Part shown: positions 29,136 to 39,260 of the stretch, one piece after another | Layout: each line of letters starts with the position of its first letter | Numbering within the stretch: the stretch's first letter is position 1 | Assembly: GCF_013184805.1 (NCBI RefSeq) | Contig: NZ_JAATNG010000005.1 | Span: 248,001 to 312,000, forward strand | Length of the DNA stretch: 64,000 nt | From: Pseudoruegeria sp. HB172150 | GTDB lineage: Bacteria > Pseudomonadota > Alphaproteobacteria > Rhodobacterales > Rhodobacteraceae | Direction: 5' to 3' | Made by a program: the position numbers and the translations under genes | The notes under the pieces: generated by a model | Seen by the model: only the letters and a program-made list of their open reading frames with translations | Told to the model about the DNA's origin: nothing | Database searches by the model: none

Positions 29136-30212
29136 ATGAGCGACTTTGACACCCAGGTGCGGGACAGCCAGGCCCAGGTGGCCGAGGCGCAGGCCAAGAT
29201 TTCAGAACTGACCAGCCGCGTGGAGACGATGGGTGCGAAGGCGAAATCGGGCGAAGACATCTCGATCGACATCGAGAACGCCACGCTGGAGGACGTTCAC
29301 GCCCATACCGAGCTGATGAACGCCAACATTGCCGAGCTGATCATGGGGCTGGATGACGTCACTTCCGGCTTTTCCAAAGATTTCGATGAGATGCGGAACA
29401 AGACTGGCTGGGAGAGCTTTGTCGGCTTCTTCTCTCAGGGCCGGTCGGACACGCTGCGTCAGGAGCGGATCCGCACCGCGAATATCGATGACAAGCTGCA
29501 GGACCTGATAGCCAAGTCCGACACCATCGTGAAGCTGCTGGAAAACCAGCTTGGCGTGCTGAACGAGCACAAGGAAAAGGTCGAAGTGAACCTGACCGGC
29601 ACGCTGGACGAGCGCGAGGCGGTCGTCGGCGAACTGGAAAGCCTGCGCGCCGAGATCGTGGGCATGGACCCGAAGATCATCGAGCTGGAGAACAAGATCT
29701 CTGTCGAGCAGGACGCCGCAGCGCGGACCAAGCTGGAAAGCGAGCTGGCGGCGCTGAACGCACAGTACAACGAGATGGTCCAGCAGGAGCAGGTCAAGCT
29801 GGCCAAGTCGCAGACGCTGGAGCGGTATATCGAGAAGGGCAAGACCTGGGTCGACAGCCTGCAGAACCAGGCGGCGACGCAGATGGTGCTGATCAACAAG
29901 CTGCAGACGGATACCAAGCAGCGCGTGGTGCTGTACGACGCGCTGACGAAGTCGCTGAAGACGGCACAGCAGCAGGATGTTGCGCACCGGATCAACGAGA
30001 TCGGCGTGCAGACCGACAAGGAGGCGCAGACCGCCATGGCGGCCATCGGTTCGGCCACGAACCAGCGGATGGCGGACATGATGGAGGCGCACGAGGATCA
30101 CATGGTCTTTGCCCGCAAGGTGCTGGAGCAGAAGGCGAAAGCGGATGAACGCTTTGCGCGGCGGTTCCAGGCCATCGTCGAGAAGCACGACAAGAACCTG
30201 TACGGGGCGTGA
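29136..30212 (+). CDS. TelA-like coiled-coil protein
   Basis: A 358-residue, highly charged, mostly helical protein, starting MSDFDTQVRDSQAQVAEAQA. Long coiled-coil stretches lie at about 5-35, 130-240 and 290-350. The layout resembles toxic-anion-resistance TelA: an early helix, a short aromatic segment (KTGWESFVGFF), then long coiled coils ending in many Gln, Asn and Lys. Direct similarity to TelA is inferred by eye and not certain. There is no signal peptide or membrane helix. GAGGAGAG precedes the ATG; a longer in-frame start at 29004 is unlikely. It opens a plus-strand cluster that includes a AAA+ ATPase, its likely partner. Confidence 0.65.
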   Translation: MSDFDTQVRDSQAQVAEAQAKISELTSRVETMGAKAKSGEDISIDIENATLEDVHAHTELMNANIAELIMGLDDVTSGFSKDFDEMRNKTGWESFVGFFSQGRSDTLRQERIRTANIDDKLQDLIAKSDTIVKLLENQLGVLNEHKEKVEVNLTGTLDEREAVVGELESLRAEIVGMDPKIIELENKISVEQDAAARTKLESELAALNAQYNEMVQQEQVKLAKSQTLERYIEKGKTWVDSLQNQAATQMVLINKLQTDTKQRVVLYDALTKSLKTAQQQDVAHRINEIGVQTDKEAQTAMAAIGSATNQRMADMMEAHEDHMVFARKVLEQKAKADERFARRFQAIVEKHDKNLYGA

Positions 30213-30275
30213 TGCGCCAAGCGGGCGCGGTTCAAGAAGGCCGTTCGCGGCCCGGTGCGGGTGGCACGGGTAGCC

Positions 30276-31415
30276 ATGTCTGACACGATCAAGGACGATC
30301 TTGTGCGAGACCATGTCGGTCTGACCGACACCTTCGCGGCGCGGCGGTATTTCCGGAAGTTCGAGACGATCACCGGCCACCTGATGCGGGTGGCGGCGGT
30401 GATGGAGCAGGAAGGCCGTATCTCGAAGCTCGACGTCAAGGTGATCGGCGGGTACCTGCAGCGGCTGGCGGCGACGTTTCAGGCGCTGTCGCTGAAATAC
30501 CTGATGACCGGGCGGGACACGGGCACGTTTTTCGGCTCGATCTCCATCGACCGTACGGAAAGCGGGTTTCCCGTGTTCCGGGAACTGCTGACCATGGCGA
30601 ACGACGCGCAGCAGGCGGAGCGCCATCTGGCCGGGACGATGAATACCCATCGGCTGAAGGACGAGATGATCCGGCAGATCGTGGGCGAGCTGGAGATCCC
30701 GACGAAGCTGCAATTCGCGATGTCGCAGCGGCTTTACTACGAGGAACTCGTAAAGGGCGACCTGTTCTGGGGGCAGAACGATCCGCAGGCGCACTGGCTG
30801 GGGGATCTGGGGCCGGGCCGGCGGCGGTATCTGGTTCACTGGAGCGTCTACGACAGCCAGGTGAACCTGCCGACGATCTACCTGATGGAGGTGGAGGACA
30901 CCGGCGCCCGCGGGCTGCCGGTGGATGACCGGCGCTGGCCCGAGGTGCAGGCGCATCTGATCGCGCAGTCGCTGGCGGGGCTGAAGCTGCTGACCATCGC
31001 GCAAGGGTTCGACCGGGATTTCGGCGACCTGCATCCGAAGCTGCTGCGCCGGATTCATGTCGGGCCGATGTACTCCGCCGCCTACACCCTGCAGACCGGG
31101 CCGATCCACGACGTGCTGGACGAAGCGCATTCGCCGGAGGGTCAGGACTGGGCGCTGGCGTGGACGTCGGAGCGGCTGGAAAGCGAGCGGGTTGAGACGG
31201 AGCGGGCCGGCTGGTTCGGGACGGTGGAGCGCGAGATCTTCGCGCTGGACCCGTTCGCCGGGCGTGGCATCGACACCGGGGCCACGGCGACGGAGCGGGC
31301 GATCATCATGCCGGCGCGGCCGTTCCAGGTGCTGGCCGAGAAGAACCCGCCGGGGTTCCGCGAGGTGCGCAAGTTCGTGGTCTCGCCGAGCGGTCAGGTG
31401 GTGAGTTACCGGTGA
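30276..31415 (+). CDS. Uncharacterised soluble protein of the AAA+ cluster
   Basis: A 379-residue protein starting MSDTIKDDLVRDHVGLTDTF. No signal peptide, membrane helix or catalytic motif is recognised. The N-terminal third is helical (ETITGHLMRVAAVMEQEGRI), the middle is mixed with a well-formed stretch YLVHWSVYDSQVNLPTIYLM, and the C-terminus is basic and aromatic. It follows the TelA-like gene after 63 bases and its stop overlaps the next gene's GTG. Its place between the coiled-coil protein and the ATPase suggests an adaptor or structural partner, which is inference only. Confidence 0.6.
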   Translation: MSDTIKDDLVRDHVGLTDTFAARRYFRKFETITGHLMRVAAVMEQEGRISKLDVKVIGGYLQRLAATFQALSLKYLMTGRDTGTFFGSISIDRTESGFPVFRELLTMANDAQQAERHLAGTMNTHRLKDEMIRQIVGELEIPTKLQFAMSQRLYYEELVKGDLFWGQNDPQAHWLGDLGPGRRRYLVHWSVYDSQVNLPTIYLMEVEDTGARGLPVDDRRWPEVQAHLIAQSLAGLKLLTIAQGFDRDFGDLHPKLLRRIHVGPMYSAAYTLQTGPIHDVLDEAHSPEGQDWALAWTSERLESERVETERAGWFGTVEREIFALDPFAGRGIDTGATATERAIIMPARPFQVLAEKNPPGFREVRKFVVSPSGQVVSYR

Positions 31416-32977
31416 GCGTCGTCGGCGAAAGGGAAAGCACCCGCTGGAGCCTGAATGACGCCGTGGCGGTGCCGGTTGCGCTGGTGTTCCTGGCCGCCGG
31501 GATATGGCGGCACCGGGGCTATTTTCACGACGACGCCTTTATCTCGCTGCGCTATGCGCTGAATCTCGCGAAGCATGGAGAGCTGACCTGGAACCTCGGC
31601 GAGCCGGTCGAGGGGTATACGAATTTCCTGCATCTCTTGGGTGCGGCCGGTCTCATCAGGCTGGGCGTCGCGCCGGAAACCGCCGTGCTGGCGATCAACC
31701 TTGCCGGGGCGCTGGTGCTGGTCGTTGTCGCCTTCATGGCCGCGCGGGTGGTGGCGCCCGGGGAGGACCGCGCGCTGGAGCGGATCGCGGCGGTTGTCGC
31801 GGTTGGAGCTACTCCGGGCATTGCGGTCTGGGTGACGGGGGGGCTGGAGGCGGTTCCGCTGTCGGCGATGCTGGCCGCGGGGTTGTGGGGCGTTCTGCTG
31901 CTGTCGAGGGATCCGGAGCGGGGCGGCGTGATCGCTGGTGTCGTGCTGGCCTTCAGCCTCGCGGTGCTGACGCGGATGGATGCGGCGGTGTTCATCGCGG
32001 CGAGCGGGCTGGGGCTGCTGCTGGCAAGCGGGGGCGAGACGCGCAAGCGCCTGATCGCGGCGCTGGTCGTTGTCGGTGTTCCGGCTCTCGTGTCGCTTGG
32101 CCATATGGCCTGGCGGTACGAGACCTACGGAACGCTGCTGCCACTGACATTCGATGCCAAGACCTCGCTGCCAATGGCGAGCCGGATGGCTGGGCTGCAG
32201 CCATTCTTCACGGCATCGCTGACCTGGGCGCCGATCATCGCGCTTTCGGTTATCGGGCTGTTTGCCGGTCTTCTGTTCCGGCTGCGGGGACGTGATTTCG
32301 CGCTGCTGGCGACGGTCTTCGGTGTGCATCTGGCCTATGTGATCTGGTCGGGCGGCGACCACATGAAGGGGTCGCGGGTGTTGCTGGTGATCGTCCTGCC
32401 CGCAGCTTTGCAGTTGCTTTCGGTGGCGGAAACGTTGAGCCGGACTGCGGGGCGCGCGATCATGGTGGTTGCCGCGCTGGCATCGGTCGTGGCGCTGTAC
32501 CTGCGCCCGCCGTTGCAGATGGACCCGGCCGCCTATGTCGGCTCCATCATCGGGCGCCACATCGCGGCGGAATGGCCGGCGGACAGCCTTGTCGCGGTGC
32601 ACACGGCGGGATCGACGCCGTTTCAGGCCTTGGATCTGCGGTTCATCGACATGCTCGGCCTCAACGATCCGGTCATCGCGGCGCGCAAGGACGTGCCGAT
32701 CCGCGCCTTCATGCAGCTGTTGCCGGGCCACATGAAGGGCGACGGAGCCTATGTGCTGTCTCGCAAGCCGGACTACATCATCGCCGGATTCGCACAGGGC
32801 AGCCCGGTGGAGGAGCAGACCTTCCTGACTGACGTCGAATTGGCCGAACTGCCGGAATTCGCCAAATGCTACGAGATGCGGCAGGAGAACGTGGCGATCC
32901 CAGAAGATCTGGCTGGGCGGGGTGAGCCGCCATCCGATCCCCTGGTGTTCAGCTTTTACGAGCGAGTGTGCGAATGA
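31412..32977 (+). CDS. Multi-pass membrane protein, GT-C glycosyltransferase-like
   Basis: A 521-residue protein with about nine hydrophobic helices in the first 380 residues and a soluble C-terminal domain. The first external loop has YFHDDAFISLRYALNLAKHG and then GEPVEGYTNFLHLL, the acidic DD motif and layout of GT-C enzymes that use polyprenyl-phosphate sugars (arabinofuranosyl- and mannosyltransferase-like). No acceptor can be named. The start is GTG overlapping the previous stop (GTGA). The enzyme type is unlike the rest of the cluster, so this gene may be a later insertion. Confidence 0.75.
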   Translation: MSVVGERESTRWSLNDAVAVPVALVFLAAGIWRHRGYFHDDAFISLRYALNLAKHGELTWNLGEPVEGYTNFLHLLGAAGLIRLGVAPETAVLAINLAGALVLVVVAFMAARVVAPGEDRALERIAAVVAVGATPGIAVWVTGGLEAVPLSAMLAAGLWGVLLLSRDPERGGVIAGVVLAFSLAVLTRMDAAVFIAASGLGLLLASGGETRKRLIAALVVVGVPALVSLGHMAWRYETYGTLLPLTFDAKTSLPMASRMAGLQPFFTASLTWAPIIALSVIGLFAGLLFRLRGRDFALLATVFGVHLAYVIWSGGDHMKGSRVLLVIVLPAALQLLSVAETLSRTAGRAIMVVAALASVVALYLRPPLQMDPAAYVGSIIGRHIAAEWPADSLVAVHTAGSTPFQALDLRFIDMLGLNDPVIAARKDVPIRAFMQLLPGHMKGDGAYVLSRKPDYIIAGFAQGSPVEEQTFLTDVELAELPEFAKCYEMRQENVAIPEDLAGRGEPPSDPLVFSFYERVCE

Positions 32978-33011
32978 GCGGTAGAGCCGGAGAGATGCGG
33001 GAGAGAGAGCG

Positions 33012-34952
33012 ATGACGCAAAGCGCGGATCTGATGGAACTGCGCGAGGAGGATATCCGGTCGCATTACCCGGCTGTTGTCGCGATGCTGGAAGGGTTCGA
33101 TCACACGCCCCGGATCGCGAAGGCGACGGATCGCCCCGCGCCGGAGCGGTCCTCTGGCATCGGGACACGGCGCCGGTTCCGGTCGACCACGCCGGGGTTG
33201 GTCACACGCTCGACGGCGCGGCCGGAGGGCGTGCGCCTGCTGGAACGGATCGAGGAGTCCGATGGCGGCGATGCACTGGTGTCGCCGGTACAGGCTACTG
33301 TGATGCAGAGTCTGCGGCGGGCCTTGGCGATATCGCTTGCGGTAGGAGAAAACTATTCCGAGGCGACCGGGCTGAAGGCACTGAAGAAGGAAAACCTCGA
33401 GGGCCGGTTGGCCGCCGGCCAGTCGGCGGAGTTTTCCGAACTGTTGCAGGCGGAGGCGCTTGCCGTTCTCTACACATTCGGCAATGCCGCTGCGTTCCTG
33501 CTGGCGTCGTCGGCGAGCGAGGTGAGCGTCGAACTGGGCGGCATCGACGAGCTGCTGACCGACAATGCGCAGCTGGCGCTGCACGGTGCATTGTGGGAGC
33601 TGGATCAGGATCTTGAGCGCTTTGCCGATAACGAGGCGAAGCTGGTGGCCGTGGTGCTGGCATTCGCGGAAGTGCTGATGGAGCGGGTCGCATTACGGGC
33701 GCAGACCGCACCGCGGCTGGGGGCGTTCACCGGCGCTTCATGGCGGGTCGAAGCGGACGATTTCACGATTCAGGGGTTTTCGCCCGCGCGGAAGGCGCGC
33801 GGTTCCACCCTGACCATGCAGTTCAAGAAGCCGAACGAAGTCGTGGGCAACCACATCGCCAAGTACCAGGCGATGAAGCTTGCCAAGATGCTGATGGCCT
33901 ATGATTTCGAGCGAAAGCTGAATCCCTTCGCCGAGATGGGCGGGTTCATCTTTACCTTCATGGGGGACGGCAAGCCGGGCACGGGCAAGACCACGCTGAT
34001 CCAGATGATGGCGGGGCTGATCTCGGAATACTGCACGAATGCGGGGTATCCGTTCCGTTACCAGAATTTCGGCATCGACAATATCGACAGCTATCAGGGC
34101 AAGTCCGGCCAGAATGCGAAGGCGTTCATCAACAACGTGCTGGACCCGAACGTGATCGGCTTCGGCACGGTGGACGACATCGACCAGATCGCCGGCAAGC
34201 GCGGCGACCGGCAGTCTAGCGCGGGGCAGCAGGAAGTGACTGCCGTACTGATGGAAGCCTTTGCCGGCGCGAACACCGTGGTGCGGGGCAACTGCACCTT
34301 CGGCATGTTCTCGAACTACCCGGAGAACGTGGACGATGCGCTGCGGCAGCGGGCGGGAGCGCGGTTCCTCGTCGACGGTCCGCAGACGCGGGACGACTAC
34401 ATCGACATTCTGGCTTTGCTGCTGGGCAAGAAGCACGATGTTCCGCTGGGGGATCACGACCTTTACGCGGCGCAGGAGATCAAGCGCGCGGTGGCGCGGT
34501 CCTTCGAGCAGCATGGCCGGCCGCAGGAGGACGGGTTGCTGCGCGTCTGGCAGGAAACCGAAGCGAAGATCGGCCGGCTCGACACGATCGCGAAGCTGGG
34601 GACCTACCTGAAGGCGATCCAGGAGGCGGACGAGCGGTTCACCGGGCGGGCGATCAAGAACATCACCGACGCGGTGAAGGTCCGGGCGATGGATTTCGAG
34701 CTGCCGGACGAATGGATGGAGGACCCGGAACTGTTCCTGTTCCGGCCCTATGACGAGAAGCTCGCGATGCTGGAGGAGATGCGGCAGCCGATCACCGTCG
34801 AGATGGTGATACAGGAAATCAACCGTTACGCGGACAGCGAGTTCCGCTATGCCGACAAGTCGGACGAGGTGGCCATCGAGGCGATGGTGCGCGATTTCGG
34901 CCGGCAGGAAGAGGCGAAGCGGCGGTATCTTGGCGGGAAGGGGGGAGCCTAG
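33012..34952 (+). CDS. AAA+ family ATPase
   Basis: A 646-residue cytoplasmic protein. Residues 1-270 form a helical, family-specific domain. The AAA+ module follows: Walker A GKPGTGKTT at 320-328, Walker B in GFGTVDDIDQIAGKR (with DD instead of the common DE), sensor 1 in CTFGMFSNYPENVDDALRQR, and arginines in RQRAGARF in the place of the Arg finger. The C-terminal 150 residues are helical. AAA+ modules of this kind remodel protein complexes or pull chains apart. Here the likely clients are the coiled-coil protein and the membrane proteins of the cluster. The start is ATG 33012, 34 bases after the GT-C gene. Confidence 0.85.
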   Translation: MTQSADLMELREEDIRSHYPAVVAMLEGFDHTPRIAKATDRPAPERSSGIGTRRRFRSTTPGLVTRSTARPEGVRLLERIEESDGGDALVSPVQATVMQSLRRALAISLAVGENYSEATGLKALKKENLEGRLAAGQSAEFSELLQAEALAVLYTFGNAAAFLLASSASEVSVELGGIDELLTDNAQLALHGALWELDQDLERFADNEAKLVAVVLAFAEVLMERVALRAQTAPRLGAFTGASWRVEADDFTIQGFSPARKARGSTLTMQFKKPNEVVGNHIAKYQAMKLAKMLMAYDFERKLNPFAEMGGFIFTFMGDGKPGTGKTTLIQMMAGLISEYCTNAGYPFRYQNFGIDNIDSYQGKSGQNAKAFINNVLDPNVIGFGTVDDIDQIAGKRGDRQSSAGQQEVTAVLMEAFAGANTVVRGNCTFGMFSNYPENVDDALRQRAGARFLVDGPQTRDDYIDILALLLGKKHDVPLGDHDLYAAQEIKRAVARSFEQHGRPQEDGLLRVWQETEAKIGRLDTIAKLGTYLKAIQEADERFTGRAIKNITDAVKVRAMDFELPDEWMEDPELFLFRPYDEKLAMLEEMRQPITVEMVIQEINRYADSEFRYADKSDEVAIEAMVRDFGRQEEAKRRYLGGKGGA

Positions 34953-34959
34953 GGCGCGG

Positions 34960-35346
34960 ATGATCGACGCGAAGCCGATATCTTTCCTGAACACCGGTGT
35001 GCCGCTGATCCTGCTGGGGGCGCTGGCGGTGCTGATCCCGTTGCTGATGGTCCCGCGCGGGACGCGGTCTCAGGTCGAGGTTGCGGTGGGGATCTGGGCG
35101 TCGGCCGGGATGCTGCTTTTGGCCGGACTGGCGGTATTCGCGGTGATCTACGCGGTCGAGGGGATCGGCGTATGGTCTGCCTTCGGAAAGGCGCCGCTGG
35201 CGACGGGATGGTTCTTTCTGACGCTCTCGGGCTACGCGGCGGTGGCCTGGGGGCCGGTGCTGTTGCTGACCTGGCTGGGGCTGGCGCAGCGGGTGGAGAA
35301 GCGGAAGGGCGAAGATCGGGCGAAGGGAGGGAGAAATGGGGCGTAG
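34960..35346 (+). CDS. Small three-helix membrane protein of the AAA+ cluster
   Basis: A 128-residue protein with three hydrophobic segments: GVPLILLGALAVLIPLLMV, GIWASAGMLLLAGLAVFAVI and LATGWFFLTLSGYAAVAWGP, and a basic tail. The ATG at 34960 is seven bases after the ATPase stop. The last 11 bases overlap the start of the low-GC mrr gene, so the C-terminal few residues may have been changed when mrr arrived. Family not recognised. Confidence 0.65.
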   Translation: MIDAKPISFLNTGVPLILLGALAVLIPLLMVPRGTRSQVEVAVGIWASAGMLLLAGLAVFAVIYAVEGIGVWSAFGKAPLATGWFFLTLSGYAAVAWGPVLLLTWLGLAQRVEKRKGEDRAKGGRNGA

Positions 35347-36262
35347 GTTCGTAGTGGAAGCCGAAGGTCTGCCTGACTTGCCAGGCATGATGCTGGTTAC
35401 CCTAGAGGCTCTGAGAGAGATTGGGGGATCAGCCACCATTCAAGAACTGGATGAAAAAGTTGCGGAGCTCGAGGGCGTTTCCGAGGTTGAGCAGTCCTAC
35501 GCAATGTCAGGCGACGACCCCCGACCAAGGCTCAACTATTATTTGGCGTGGGCCAGGACCTTTTTAAAGCGCGGCGAAGCAGTCGAGAATTCATCTCGAG
35601 GTGTTTGGGCCATCACTGAGGTCGGGCAAAAGATAACTGTCTATGAGCAGACCAAGACTATCTACGACAGGGTGAATGCGGAAGAGCGGGAGAAGGCACG
35701 GGAAAAACGGCAAAAAACAAAGACTGCCGAAGGGAAATCCATCTCAAAGGTAGGCCAAGAAACGCTCATGGAAGCGCCTTCGGCGGTGGCTCTCGAGGAG
35801 AATAAGGACTGGAAAACGGAGCTTCTTGAGGTTCTGAAGGCAATTGAGCCTTCTGCGTTTGAGCGGTTGTCCCAGAGACTATTGAGAGAGAGTGGATTTA
35901 CCAAAGTTGAAGTGAGGGGAAAATCGGGGGATGGAGGAATTGATGGTGTCGGCGTCCTTCGGGTTAATCTCGTATCCTTCCAAATCTTCTTTCAATGCAA
36001 AAGATACAAAGGAAGCGTTGGCGCATCGGAGATCCGTGATTTTAGAGGCGCAATGCAGGGTCGGGCCGATAAGGGACTCTTTATCACAACAGGTAGTTTC
36101 ACCGCACAAGCCTCTGATGAGGCAACGCGCGATGGTGCAACCGCTATTGATCTCATCGATGGGGAGCGCCTGTGCCAGTTGTTAAAAGAGAACGCGCTCG
36201 GAATTTCGACTGAAATGATTGAAAAGGTGTCTGTAGACGCCGATTGGTTCAAGAGCATCTGA
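35336..36262 (+). CDS. Mrr-type restriction endonuclease
   Basis: A 308-residue protein. Residues 1-100 are a winged-helix Mrr N-terminal domain (TLEALREIGGSATIQELDEK and RGVWAITEVG), 105-160 a charged linker, and 165-300 the Mrr catalytic domain. The PD-(D/E)XK-like site is visible: GDGGIDGVG with Asp203, then FFQCKRYKG with Gln220-x-Lys222. Such enzymes cut DNA carrying foreign modification (type IV restriction). GC content is clearly lower than in its neighbours (27 of 60 bases at 35701-35760, against 42 of 60 at 36601-36660). It overlaps the gene before by 11 bases and has its own strong site GGGAGGGAGAA. These are signs of insertion into an existing cluster. Confidence 0.88.
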   Translation: MGRRFVVEAEGLPDLPGMMLVTLEALREIGGSATIQELDEKVAELEGVSEVEQSYAMSGDDPRPRLNYYLAWARTFLKRGEAVENSSRGVWAITEVGQKITVYEQTKTIYDRVNAEEREKAREKRQKTKTAEGKSISKVGQETLMEAPSAVALEENKDWKTELLEVLKAIEPSAFERLSQRLLRESGFTKVEVRGKSGDGGIDGVGVLRVNLVSFQIFFQCKRYKGSVGASEIRDFRGAMQGRADKGLFITTGSFTAQASDEATRDGATAIDLIDGERLCQLLKENALGISTEMIEKVSVDADWFKSI

Positions 36263-36266
36263 CCAG

Positions 36267-37628
36267 ATGAAACGCCTTATCGAAATGGGTCTGATGTTCG
36301 GAAACCTCGTTCGGGTGGACTCGCCGGCGCTGGTGGAGCGGTACAATCGGGCGCTGACGCATCTGACCGGGAAGACGACGGAACAGACGGATTTCCACAT
36401 CGACATTTCGGGCTTCAGTCCCGAGATCGGCGACGAGCTGGGCGATGACCTATACCTGAACCCGAACGGCTGTAACCGGCAGTTCATCCTGCTGACGACC
36501 GAGCAAAAATCGGCGCCGCTGCTGAACGCGCGGTTCTCGTTCTCGCGCCGGGTGCTGCGGGATTTCATCGAGGCGAACGAGGCGAAGCTGTTCGCGCTGG
36601 TCACGCGGGATGCGGTGGCGGGGGAGCTGATGAACTCGGTGCTGGAGGTTGGCTCGCCGCAGCGCCTGTTCGATATCCAGCGGATCGTGGTCGAGGCGGA
36701 TACGACCGGCGGCGACGTGCGCAATGCGCGGAAGCTGCAGGAGAAGATCGAGCGGTTCCGCAACGAGGACGACGCCTGGTGGGACGACGTGCTGATCGCC
36801 GAGATGATCGGGCTGGCGAAGCAGACCGGCGACGTGACGCGGAATCCGGTGGACCTGAGCACGTTCGACCTGCAGGTCCCGGATTTCTGGACGGCGCATT
36901 ACGGCGGCCTTTACGTGTTCCGCGGTGTGGAGCACCCGGCGGCGATCGCATCCGGCGACCGGGAAGCGCTGGGCGAGTTGCCGATCAGGTATGTTCTGGG
37001 CCTGAACGAGCCGAACCGGATCGCGAAGTTCTTCGAGCTGAACGGGCTGGTGGAACCGATCGTGAAGGCGCGCGGCATCGACGGGGCGGCGATCCTGCGG
37101 CAGAAGATGGACTTCATCCTCGTGGATGCCGCCGCGACTCTGGGCCACGACATGAGCGTCGCGACGCGGCGCGATCTGCGGATGCTGGCGCGGCAGCTGG
37201 GGTCCGCGCTGCCGGAAGCCTATCACGGGCTGGCGGCGCTGCTTCGCTGGGCGGAGGGCGGTGGCGACTGGCCGCGGATCGCCAGCGATCACCCGGCGTA
37301 TTTCTACACCCTGCGCGCGGCGGCGGGTCCGCAGATGGAGCTGGTGAACCAGCTGCTGGCGGAGCTGACTCCGCTGGACGTGCGGCAGCTGTTCATCTGC
37401 CACAAGCAGTTATTCTACGACCTGTACCGCGGCTGGAGCGAGGCGAAGAAGGAATACGTGGCCGAGTTCCTTGCCGCCGAATACGCGGTGGACAAGGCGG
37501 GCACGCGTGCGGCGCTGTTCGGGCAGGAGCCGGGGATGGAAGAGCCCGAGGCGGAACAGGAGCCCGTGGCGCGGCGCGAGGACCTGATCAACCTGGTCGG
37601 CCCCTGGGGCGCGGTGCGGCGGAGCTAG
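36267..37628 (+). CDS. DUF6638-like protein of the AAA+ cluster
   Basis: A 453-residue soluble protein whose pattern I associate with DUF6638 of Rhodobacteraceae. It begins MKRLIEMGLMFGNLVRVDSP, then has ISGFSPEIGDELGDDLYLN, TGDVTRNPVDLSTFDLQV and VRQLFICHKQLFYDLYRGW. No catalytic motif or membrane helix is seen. The ATG is four bases after the mrr stop with no clear ribosome binding site, consistent with a gene that once followed a different neighbour. It returns to the high GC of the cluster. Function unknown; it travels with the AAA+ ATPase here. Confidence 0.7.
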   Translation: MKRLIEMGLMFGNLVRVDSPALVERYNRALTHLTGKTTEQTDFHIDISGFSPEIGDELGDDLYLNPNGCNRQFILLTTEQKSAPLLNARFSFSRRVLRDFIEANEAKLFALVTRDAVAGELMNSVLEVGSPQRLFDIQRIVVEADTTGGDVRNARKLQEKIERFRNEDDAWWDDVLIAEMIGLAKQTGDVTRNPVDLSTFDLQVPDFWTAHYGGLYVFRGVEHPAAIASGDREALGELPIRYVLGLNEPNRIAKFFELNGLVEPIVKARGIDGAAILRQKMDFILVDAAATLGHDMSVATRRDLRMLARQLGSALPEAYHGLAALLRWAEGGGDWPRIASDHPAYFYTLRAAAGPQMELVNQLLAELTPLDVRQLFICHKQLFYDLYRGWSEAKKEYVAEFLAAEYAVDKAGTRAALFGQEPGMEEPEAEQEPVARREDLINLVGPWGAVRRS

Positions 37629-37630
37629 CG

Positions 37631-37906
37631 ATGGGATTTCTGCGGCTGATCTTTTTCGGGTTCATCGGGCTGAGCATCATCTACGGGCTGCTCTGGCTGT
37701 ACTCCCGCTCGGTACGCCGCGAAAAGCTGGAGGACGCCTGGGATGCCGAACATCCGGAAGGGGGTGATCCCGAGGCGCGGGATGCCTATGTGGAGAAGGG
37801 AATGAAGGCGTATCATGCCAGCCTGCGGCCGAAGCTGCTTTTGCTGGTATACGTCGTCCCGGCGGTGGTCGCCGCCGTGGTGCTGATCGTGATGAACTGG
37901 ACCTGA
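37631..37906 (+). CDS. Small two-helix membrane protein
   Basis: A 91-residue protein starting two bases after the DUF6638-like gene. One helix is near the N-terminus (LIFFGFIGLSIIYGLLWLYS) and one at the C-terminus (LLLLVYVVPAVVAAVVLIVM). Between them is a charged cytoplasmic or periplasmic segment with many acidic residues (WDAEHPEGGDPEARDAYVEK). No family is recognised. Tight spacing on both sides shows it belongs to the same transcript. Confidence 0.65.
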   Translation: MGFLRLIFFGFIGLSIIYGLLWLYSRSVRREKLEDAWDAEHPEGGDPEARDAYVEKGMKAYHASLRPKLLLLVYVVPAVVAAVVLIVMNWT

Positions 37907-37916
37907 GGCTGCCTGA

Positions 37917-38612
37917 ATGCGCTACGTGAAATGGACCTTCTACACCATCCTGTTCGTGCTGCTGTTCGGGCTGCTGCACTACACCTTGCCGCAGCATGAC
38001 GTGGTCCGCGTGGTCAACACCTACCAGGAGCGGCAGGACCTGGACGACTGGACGCGGATATTCTGGGCGAAGCCGGACGATCAGTCGACCGGGCTGATCA
38101 ACCGCGATGTCCAGTTCATCCAGACGGTGCAAAAGAAAACCTGGCTGCTGGGCTTCATCCGGCGCGACGCCGAAGGTGTGATGGTCTATCGCAACGAGGA
38201 TACCGGCTGGTCGTGGCCACCATACTTCAAGTTCGACACGGCGAGCCTGCAGACCGAGGCGGATGACCTGCGGTCAACGCGCGAAAGCCCGAAATGGGCG
38301 GTCATCACGCATTACGGCTGGCGTAACGAGCTGTTCTCGGCATTTCCGAACGCAATCGCGATCCGGGAAGTCGAGTCGCCCGACGTGGTGGTGATCCCGT
38401 GGTTCAACATCTTCTTCTTCGTCTTTGCTATAACCGTGATCCTGTTCATCCGTGCGATGTGGCGGCAGTTCCGCGAACGGTCGGTCGATCCGGTGCTGGA
38501 AAGTGCGGGCGACGCCTGGGACCGGGCCGATGCACAGATCGACGACACGCGCGGACGGTTCCGTCGCTGGCTGGATTCGTGGAAGCGCAAGCCGAAGGGG
38601 CCGGTGAAGTAA
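37917..38612 (+). CDS. DUF1523-like membrane protein
   Basis: A 231-residue protein with an N-terminal helix (WTFYTILFVLLFGLLHYTLP), a periplasmic domain (QHDVVRVVNTYQER, RDVQFIQTVQKK) and a second helix (WFNIFFFVFAITVILFIRAM) before a basic cytoplasmic tail. The opening MRYVKWTFYTILF and HYTLPQHDVVRVVNT are, as I recall, typical of DUF1523. Function is unknown. It is the last gene of the plus-strand cluster and faces a short minus-strand gene. Confidence 0.72.
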   Translation: MRYVKWTFYTILFVLLFGLLHYTLPQHDVVRVVNTYQERQDLDDWTRIFWAKPDDQSTGLINRDVQFIQTVQKKTWLLGFIRRDAEGVMVYRNEDTGWSWPPYFKFDTASLQTEADDLRSTRESPKWAVITHYGWRNELFSAFPNAIAIREVESPDVVVIPWFNIFFFVFAITVILFIRAMWRQFRERSVDPVLESAGDAWDRADAQIDDTRGRFRRWLDSWKRKPKGPVK

Positions 38613-39011: not shown

Positions 39012-39260
39012 ATGAGCAATCGACTGGTAGAGGCAAAAACGGCCTGTCTGATGCAGGGTATGTCGCGGGTTCTGGGAACGAGTCCGGACCTTATCGAGGG
39101 CGAACTGGGATCGGATCGACTGGACGCGATGGTGCAGACTTGTCGCTCCTGTGCCCGGGCCGACGATTGTATCCTGTGGCTGCTGGATCATCAGGCGGGG
39201 TCCCGGAGGGCGCCGGAGTACTGCCTGAACGGAGAGCAGCTGGAAGCGCTGAGCGTCTGA
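39012..39260 (+). CDS. DUF6455-like small cysteine protein
   Basis: An 82-residue protein with four cysteines arranged as CRSCARADDC plus YCLNGEQLEAL near the C-terminus, a pattern I associate with DUF6455 of Rhodobacteraceae. A metal or Fe-S ligand role is possible but undemonstrated. AGGGAG lies eight bases before the ATG. The gene is followed by a strong terminator, so it is a single-gene unit. Confidence 0.72.
   Translation: MSNRLVEAKTACLMQGMSRVLGTSPDLIEGELGSDRLDAMVQTCRSCARADDCILWLLDHQAGSRRAPEYCLNGEQLEALSV

Follow-up and report, generated by a model that had tools for sequence, protein, structure and literature searches.

Gene neighbourhoods in which PspA or Snf7 relatives lie beside AAA+ ATPase genes have been described in some bacteria in a survey of the phage shock protein (PSP) system (PMC11237479), whose main text uses neither the word 'TelA' nor the word 'DUF1523'; this and a survey of the endosomal sorting complexes required for transport (ESCRT; PMC10936438) served as comparison literature. 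Here we describe a locus within a 64,000-nucleotide stretch of the genome of Pseudoruegeria sp. HB172150 (Rhodobacteraceae; GCF_013184805.1, NZ_JAATNG010000005.1, positions 248,001-312,000), hereafter the window, whose coordinates are used throughout. Positions 29136-38612 are filled by nine plus-strand open reading frames (ORFs), A to I (Table 1), of which the coiled-coil protein A, the soluble protein B, the AAA+ ATPase D and the DUF6638 protein G form a real and widespread four-gene AAA+ module that is firm as a unit. The module is uncharacterised as far as the literature searched, which largely excluded subscription journals and bioRxiv and yielded no description of it; the term 'DUF6638' was not found in this literature, and that on DUF1523 and DUF2333 gave no title on this system.

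We identified A, B, D and G each in the same 22 of 61 genomes, a sample made up of this genome and 60 relatives, and no genome carried a subset of the four (core-bearing genomes G000-G004, G007-G011, G013, G014, G016, G017, G020, G022, G026, G027, G030, G032, G035 and G036). Within the window's own family 22 of 37 sampled genomes carry the core module. A sample of 385 genomes from the class contained DUF6638 above the cut-off in seven, in all of which D adjoins; an eighth match (genome G285) fell below the cut-off and D is not adjacent to it. Because the four genes share an identical distribution and D lies beside every DUF6638 gene found above the cut-off in the class, A-B-D-G is one functional unit, obligate in the sample, and this is the strongest result of the analysis.

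Comparison of 18-kb regions from 25 other genomes and the window's own showed A, B, D, G and I in this order throughout (26 of 26); H is present in 25 of the regions, and C and F at the window's own locus alone. We then considered 116 loci (26 + 80, the best loci of a species-level scan, + 9 + 1), which are partly duplicated between collections and hold 110 distinct D sequences; three plasmid loci (L165-L167) stand outside this set. A was present in 113 of the loci. The order was A-B-D-G-H-I in 88, A-B-D-E-G-H-I in seven, a rhizobial form in seven and the nine-gene form of the window in one, the remaining 13 loci being shorter or incomplete, some at contig ends, so that the full A-B-D-G set with a membrane partner occurs in 103 of 116 (one without a called D). 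Conservation is highest in A and D, with mean pairwise identities over 800 random pairs of 0.709 and 0.704, followed by G (0.575), B (0.570), I (0.503) and H (0.461).

An earlier reading of the DNA made from the sequence only had described nine plus-strand genes including a true AAA+ ATPase and DUF6638-like and DUF1523-like proteins, and had taken them together as one machine. All nine genes are present and the named families were borne out, although C and F are missing from its list of gene types. The core genes are not scattered in relatives, given their perfect co-occurrence and conserved order, and no well-characterised system emerged among the matches. The single nine-gene machine did not survive, since C and F are local insertions and DUF1523 occurs without the core in 10 of the 61 genomes.

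Table 1. Coordinates and features of the nine ORFs in the window. Hydrophobic segments were counted with a simple hydropathy threshold, not a dedicated transmembrane (TM) predictor; aa, amino acids.
ORF	Position	Strand	Length (aa)	Hydrophobic segments	Description
A	29136..30212	+	358	0	Long alpha-helical coiled-coil protein, no family
B	30276..31415	+	379	0	Soluble alpha+beta protein, no family
C	31412..32977	+	521	10	Polytopic membrane protein, weakly glycosyltransferase-like
D	33012..34952	+	646	1	Classical AAA+ ATPase by sequence; Pfam AAA (PF00004)
E	34960..35346	+		4	Small multi-TM protein; first gene of variable D-G slot
F	35336..36262	+		0	Predicted Mrr-type (type IV) restriction endonuclease
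G	36267..37628	+	453	0	DUF6638 protein, fourth core component
H	37631..37906	+	91	2	Two predicted TM segments; membrane module
I	37917..38612	+		2	Membrane protein of DUF1523 with two TM segments predicted; second gene of membrane module

Searches against Pfam gave no family above the cut-off for A, B, C, E and H, and NCBIfam gave none above the cut-off for any of the nine proteins. Just downstream, at 39012-39260, lies a small cysteine-containing ORF which we take to resemble DUF6455 proteins.

D contains one AAA domain (Pfam AAA, E-value 2.7e-11, 44.5 bits against a cut-off of 21.2), with the Walker A motif (GxPGTGKT) at residues 320-328, where the sequence-only reading had placed it. Across the 110 distinct D sequences G320 and P322-K326 are invariant and T327 is kept in 109 (Ser in one); sensor 1 (N435) and R445, R447 and R451 (Arg fingers, second region of homology) are present in 110/110, and G545-R546 in 109-110. 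Aromatic-x-Gly pore loops grip the substrate in AAA+ proteins, and the corresponding loop of D (Y361-Q362-G363; Tyr in 109 of 110 with Phe in one, G363 in all) aligns with the YVG loop of the i-AAA protease 5ubv and also with the aromatic-x-Gly of fidgetin-like 1 and Afg2. Walker B reads Asp-Asp (D388-D389) in 110/110, where the hhhhDE pattern has Asp and the catalytic Glu, a difference that may slow ATP hydrolysis; departures from the pattern at Walker B also occur elsewhere among AAA+ proteins, Bcs1 being an example. By its motifs D is thus a member of the classical AAA+ proteins, Walker B excepted, and because of them it is predicted that D should bind ATP, hexamerise and thread a protein, perhaps slowly. 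The N-terminal region of about 300 residues and the C-terminal region have no Pfam match, and neither an MIT nor a peptidase domain was detected in Pfam (MIT: none at E-value ≤ 1). Searched as a single sequence against PDB, D matched 5ubv at 2.9e-6; its NCBIfam matches to Cdc48 (0.0014) and CbbX (0.073) fall below the cut-off, and those in PADLOC are weak (TRIP13 at 3.8e-5, 21 bits; IetA at 0.014).

On sequence comparison A and B are members of no family found, while G is a member of DUF6638 (PF20343; E-value 3.4e-227, 754.9 bits, cut-off 27), with no match in PADLOC or in a profile search of PDB sequences. A has no Pfam or NCBIfam family above the cut-off and is most conserved at residues 221-280 and next at 61-80; since such conservation is unusual for a coiled coil, it suggests fixed contacts at these stretches. 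Its AlphaFold2 model is all-helical (predicted local distance difference test, pLDDT, 72.1), and structural searches with Foldseek and VIA-align returned ClyA/AhlB-type and syntaxin/STAT helical bundles (Z up to 14.1, possibly by chance for helical bundles according to the tool, and given no weight here) and no match at E-value ≤ 0.001. The 50 structural matches listed include no ESCRT-III or PspA chain, which carries no weight either way. A profile of A found 18 coiled-coil-type matches among PDB sequences, at E-value 0.024 or weaker, and its PADLOC matches are weak and of coiled-coil type (best 0.0028). For B there were zero matches in Pfam, NCBIfam, PADLOC and PHROGs. The AlphaFold2 model of B (pLDDT 85.5; predicted template modelling score, pTM, 0.85) had no Foldseek match in PDB at E-value ≤ 0.001, and a profile search of PDB sequences gave one chance-level match. 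In a second look at the structural matches many of those with Z of 4 to about 5 were of urate oxidase, DHNA and QueF type, over approximately residues 180-340; these are tunnelling-fold enzymes, and the weak resemblance of the modelled B to that fold is a lead only.

The sequence-only reading had called A TelA-like and suggested a possible role in envelope stress or toxic-anion tolerance; the link to TelA and toxic anions found no support. A is not TelA by any comparison made here: it has no Pfam match to TelA (PF05816) at E-value ≤ 1, and the profile-profile probability is 0.2 %, or 11 % with broader alignments. A relation to PspA or ESCRT-III by sequence was likewise rejected, with no PF04012 or Snf7 match at E-value ≤ 1 and an hhalign probability to PspA of 13 %; the control pair TelA-PspA reaches 24 %, above both A-TelA and A-PspA. 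A true TelA (E-value 1.3e-108) is encoded on another contig of this genome and TelA is found above the cut-off in 54 of the 61 genomes, and the genome also has its own PspA elsewhere (E-value 2.5e-20).

I belongs to DUF1523 (PF07509; E-value 4.7e-66, 221.9 bits, cut-off 23) and H was found in 102 of the 116 loci; a DUF1523 or DUF2333 gene follows G in 111. Among the 61 genomes DUF1523 occurs in 32, all 22 core-bearing ones and 10 others, and because these 10 relatives lack A, B, D and G, H and DUF1523 look like a second, separate module. We identified 11 DUF1523 loci without an adjoining core (L231-L241), one of which is a second copy in genome G008, whose core lies elsewhere. H is present in 7 of the 11, and none shows a remnant of A, B, D or G above chance. 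One of these orphan loci (L236) has a homolog of E (E-value 1.3e-7), and by eye L232 and L234 have similar small membrane ORFs before H. Several have flanking genes in common with core loci, on the downstream side in L232 and L236 (with 9-10 loci) and on the upstream side in L233, L237 and L238 (with 7-11), and the same genomic site therefore seems to occur both with the core and in its absence. We read this as a soluble module that is acquired or lost in one piece next to a membrane module, H and DUF1523, of wider distribution. A DUF2333-type gene replaces H and DUF1523 in rhizobial-type loci (L165, L170-L172, L174, L175), a name given to L170-L176 by similarity to Sinorhizobium meliloti; this form accounts for 7 of the 116 loci (one without a called D), and a DUF559-type endonuclease fills the D-G slot in 5 of the 7.

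The D-G junction (34953-36266 in the window) is a slot of variable content whose genes run in the direction of the operon, as judged from 106 distinct loci in which D and G share a strand; small multi-TM proteins are common in it, and nuclease or toxin-antitoxin-like genes occur at times. The gap is ≤ 100 bp in 9, larger but without a co-directional ORF of 60 aa in 4, and holds at least one such ORF in 93. The slot genes lie at a median distance of -4 bp from their neighbours at both ends and within 30 bp in 72 and 75 of the 93, and are therefore usually stitched into the operon; their G+C is below that of D by 0.061 on average. A TM-bearing slot ORF is present in 69 of the 106 loci, a soluble one of at least 120 aa in 23 and neither in 19. 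To characterise the contents we took one representative of at least 100 aa per single-linkage cluster, and scanned the 49 from the D-G gap (a further 23 lie between A and B or between B and D). At least two TM segments were predicted in 29 of the 49 as against 3 of 49 length-matched flank ORFs, and PADLOC matches were found for at least 3 of 49 as against 0 of 49. This control is imperfect, as the flank ORFs come from a naive six-frame caller that includes shadow ORFs and both strands, one per cluster, while the slot ORFs all run in the same direction as D and G; the presence of 29 Pfam families in the flank set shows nevertheless that many of its ORFs are real. Apart from PDC-S37 and Hhe, the PADLOC families matched in the slot trace to loci L058, L084 and L091, and Pfam families with one representative each include, among others, Mrr, DUF559, a DUF433/PIN_10 pair, AbiJ_NTD4, DUF2971 and DUF3825. 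Because loci exist where D and G adjoin (including L168, L169, L052, L053 and that of genome G1090), we regard it as a site where accessory genes are housed and not as an essential part.

At the window's own locus the slot holds E and F. Homology to this copy of E picked out a counterpart in 8 of the 116 loci, and E looks related to the largest slot cluster, of 31 ORFs. F carries Mrr_cat (E-value 5.4e-32) and Mrr_N (2.8e-14) domains, both above the cut-off, and matches mREase_IV in PADLOC (9.2e-33); by its domains it is an Mrr-type (type IV) restriction enzyme of predicted activity. Its G+C at third codon positions (GC3) of 0.547, compared with 0.79-0.89 for the other eight genes, makes it probably a recent arrival, acquired as cargo in the slot. 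C, which has a weak NCBIfam match to the LA_3751 glycosyltransferase (E-value 0.055), was found in 1 of the 61 genomes, this one, with no homolog at E-value ≤ 1e-20 in the 60 relatives. Since, of the 116 loci, only the window's own contains C and F, they are local insertions outside the system.

D was identified in 26 of 398 genomes sampled across the phylum (E-value ≤ 1e-15), 14 of its own family including the window's genome, 11 of other families of the class and one of another class. A collection of genomes at species level yielded at least 561 confirmed encoding places. Beyond Pseudomonadota the core genes were queried in the species-level scan alone, of which the best 80 loci were kept. 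Plasmid records with D come from Sinorhizobium (4), Vibrio (4), Shinella (1) and Rhizobium (1). The S. meliloti pSymB order is A-B-D-(endonuclease, insertion sequence)-G-DUF2333, and that of a Vibrio parahaemolyticus megaplasmid A-B-D-G followed by mfd, the Vibrio copy of G matching DUF6638 at 2.7e-59. Within the family D identities to this genome track those of TelA in three relatives (77/78.5, 70/72.6 and 69/65 % for D/TelA), and D evolves there like an ordinary vertical gene. Three further pairs gave TelA identities of 30 % (G461), 31 % (G465) and 17 % (G460, the last probably not an ortholog). Genome G460 belongs to a class other than that of the window; in the class of G460, D occurs in 2 of 321 genomes, G460 and G1090. 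G460 carries the whole cluster (L168) with a D 72 % identical to that of the window, which makes a transfer between classes probable. G1090 keeps the A-B-D-G order at identities of 18 % (A), 19 % (B) and 24 % (D), its G matches DUF6638 at 1.8e-29, and by eye membrane-type ORFs follow G. Hidden Markov models built without G1090 find its A (5e-11), B (4.9e-7), D (3.8e-64) and G (4.4e-47; Z set to 4000), and when rhizobial and Vibrio sequences are also left out A, D and G are found and B is missed. A phage origin of the module was rejected: no match occurred in 50,697 phage records, and in viral contigs 146 and 5 stretches fit a pattern, none of which was confirmed.

We tentatively favour a reading in which A-B-D-G is an obligate soluble machine whose threading AAA+ protein D remodels the coiled coil A at the inner membrane. 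D would assemble as a hexamer with its pore loop pulling on a protein, for which the C-terminal half of A, being highly conserved, is the likeliest candidate. A itself would build an elongated structure on the cytoplasmic side of the inner membrane, and B and G would act as adaptors or regulators that couple A and D and set when D acts. The faster-evolving membrane proteins, H and DUF1523 here and DUF2333 in rhizobia, would anchor the assembly or be acted on. In the resulting cycle A would assemble at the membrane and D would use ATP to disassemble or reshape it. The suggestion in the sequence-only reading that an ATPase remodels a coiled-coil assembly near membrane proteins thus stands as the best guess, D having the parts of a substrate-threading AAA+ protein, though not for all nine genes. 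A number of points weigh against it. A D-family profile found no PDB chain at E-value ≤ 1e-5, and the model of A is of middling confidence with generic helical bundles as its listed structural matches. The presence of the DUF1523 gene without the core in ten genomes leaves the membrane coupling to neighbourhood only, and the Vibrio megaplasmid has mfd after G and no membrane protein. Alternatively, the core could be dedicated to a single client, an enzyme or a membrane complex, and act as its chaperone or activase much as CbbX or MoxR proteins do. A, B and G would then hold this client for D to remodel, and the single AAA domain of D, its below-cut-off matches to Cdc48 and CbbX and the lack of any family for A and B, with G in DUF6638 only, are in keeping with this. 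However, no flanking family is common to most loci (the largest cluster reaches 46 of 110 loci, both sides) and consequently no fixed client gene is linked, and we regard this role as rather unlikely.

The contents of the slot bring to mind an anti-phage or conflict system in which A-B-D-G sense and transmit while the swappable slot genes are the effectors. Systems with interchangeable effectors have precedent, and the slot, filled in 93 of 106 loci by tightly joined co-directional ORFs, offers small multi-TM, Mrr, DUF559, PIN/DUF433, AbiJ-type and DUF2971 proteins, with the excess of TM segments and PADLOC matches over flank ORFs given above; the patchy distribution and the 72 % identical D in another class point the same way. 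Against this, the core matches none of the PADLOC models of described anti-phage systems, with nothing for B and G and weak matches for A (0.0028) and D (TRIP13), D and G lie within 100 bp in 9 of the 106 loci and 19 have no slot gene by the TM or soluble criteria. No defence signal was seen in the 49 flank ORFs scanned, and D behaves like an ordinary vertical gene in the family and is absent from the phage records and viral contigs searched. We therefore judge such a system unlikely. Still less probable is a previously undescribed two-module bacterial machine in which the all-or-none soluble module acts on the membrane module and the AAA+ protein triggers swappable slot outputs, including phage defence. 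A TelA- or PspA-type envelope-stress or toxic-anion tolerance system would account for a coiled coil with membrane proteins, and PspA and Snf7 relatives beside AAA+ genes are on record in some bacteria in the PSP survey (PMC11237479). A, however, matches neither by hidden Markov model, its profile probabilities of 11 % and 13 % do not reach that of the control pair (24 %), and a TelA and a PspA are encoded elsewhere in the genome, which makes this explanation very unlikely.

Should the favoured reading of D as an ATP-driven remodeller of A be true, the module would represent a bacterial machine that works like Vps4 on ESCRT-III, although with components that are unrelated or only very distantly related, and its all-or-none inheritance makes it directly testable. 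The D-G slot is also a convenient place in which to look for small membrane effectors and defence genes that are new. Among the families at the locus, G, I and the rhizobial counterpart of I belong to DUF6638 (PF20343), DUF1523 (PF07509) and DUF2333 (PF10095) respectively, which carry no function. TelA (PF05816) is similar to A in length and helical content only, a sequence or profile relation having gone undetected in the searches above. D resembles the classical AAA+ proteins 5ubv, Vps4, fidgetin-like 1 and Afg2 in its AAA domain, Walker A, pore loop, sensor 1 and Arg fingers, but differs in the Asp-Asp Walker B, in an N-terminal region of its own and in a C-terminal region without a Pfam match, and the N-terminal MIT domain of Vps4 was not detected in it. 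The ESCRT-III/Vps4 and PspA-AAA+ neighbourhoods described in the available part of the PSP survey (PMC11237479) likewise combine a coiled coil with a classical AAA+ protein and membrane proteins, a likeness of analogy only, since A has no PspA_IM30 or Snf7 match and no counterpart of B or G is mentioned in that part. The module may work as Vps4 does on ESCRT-III, or in the manner of an activase.

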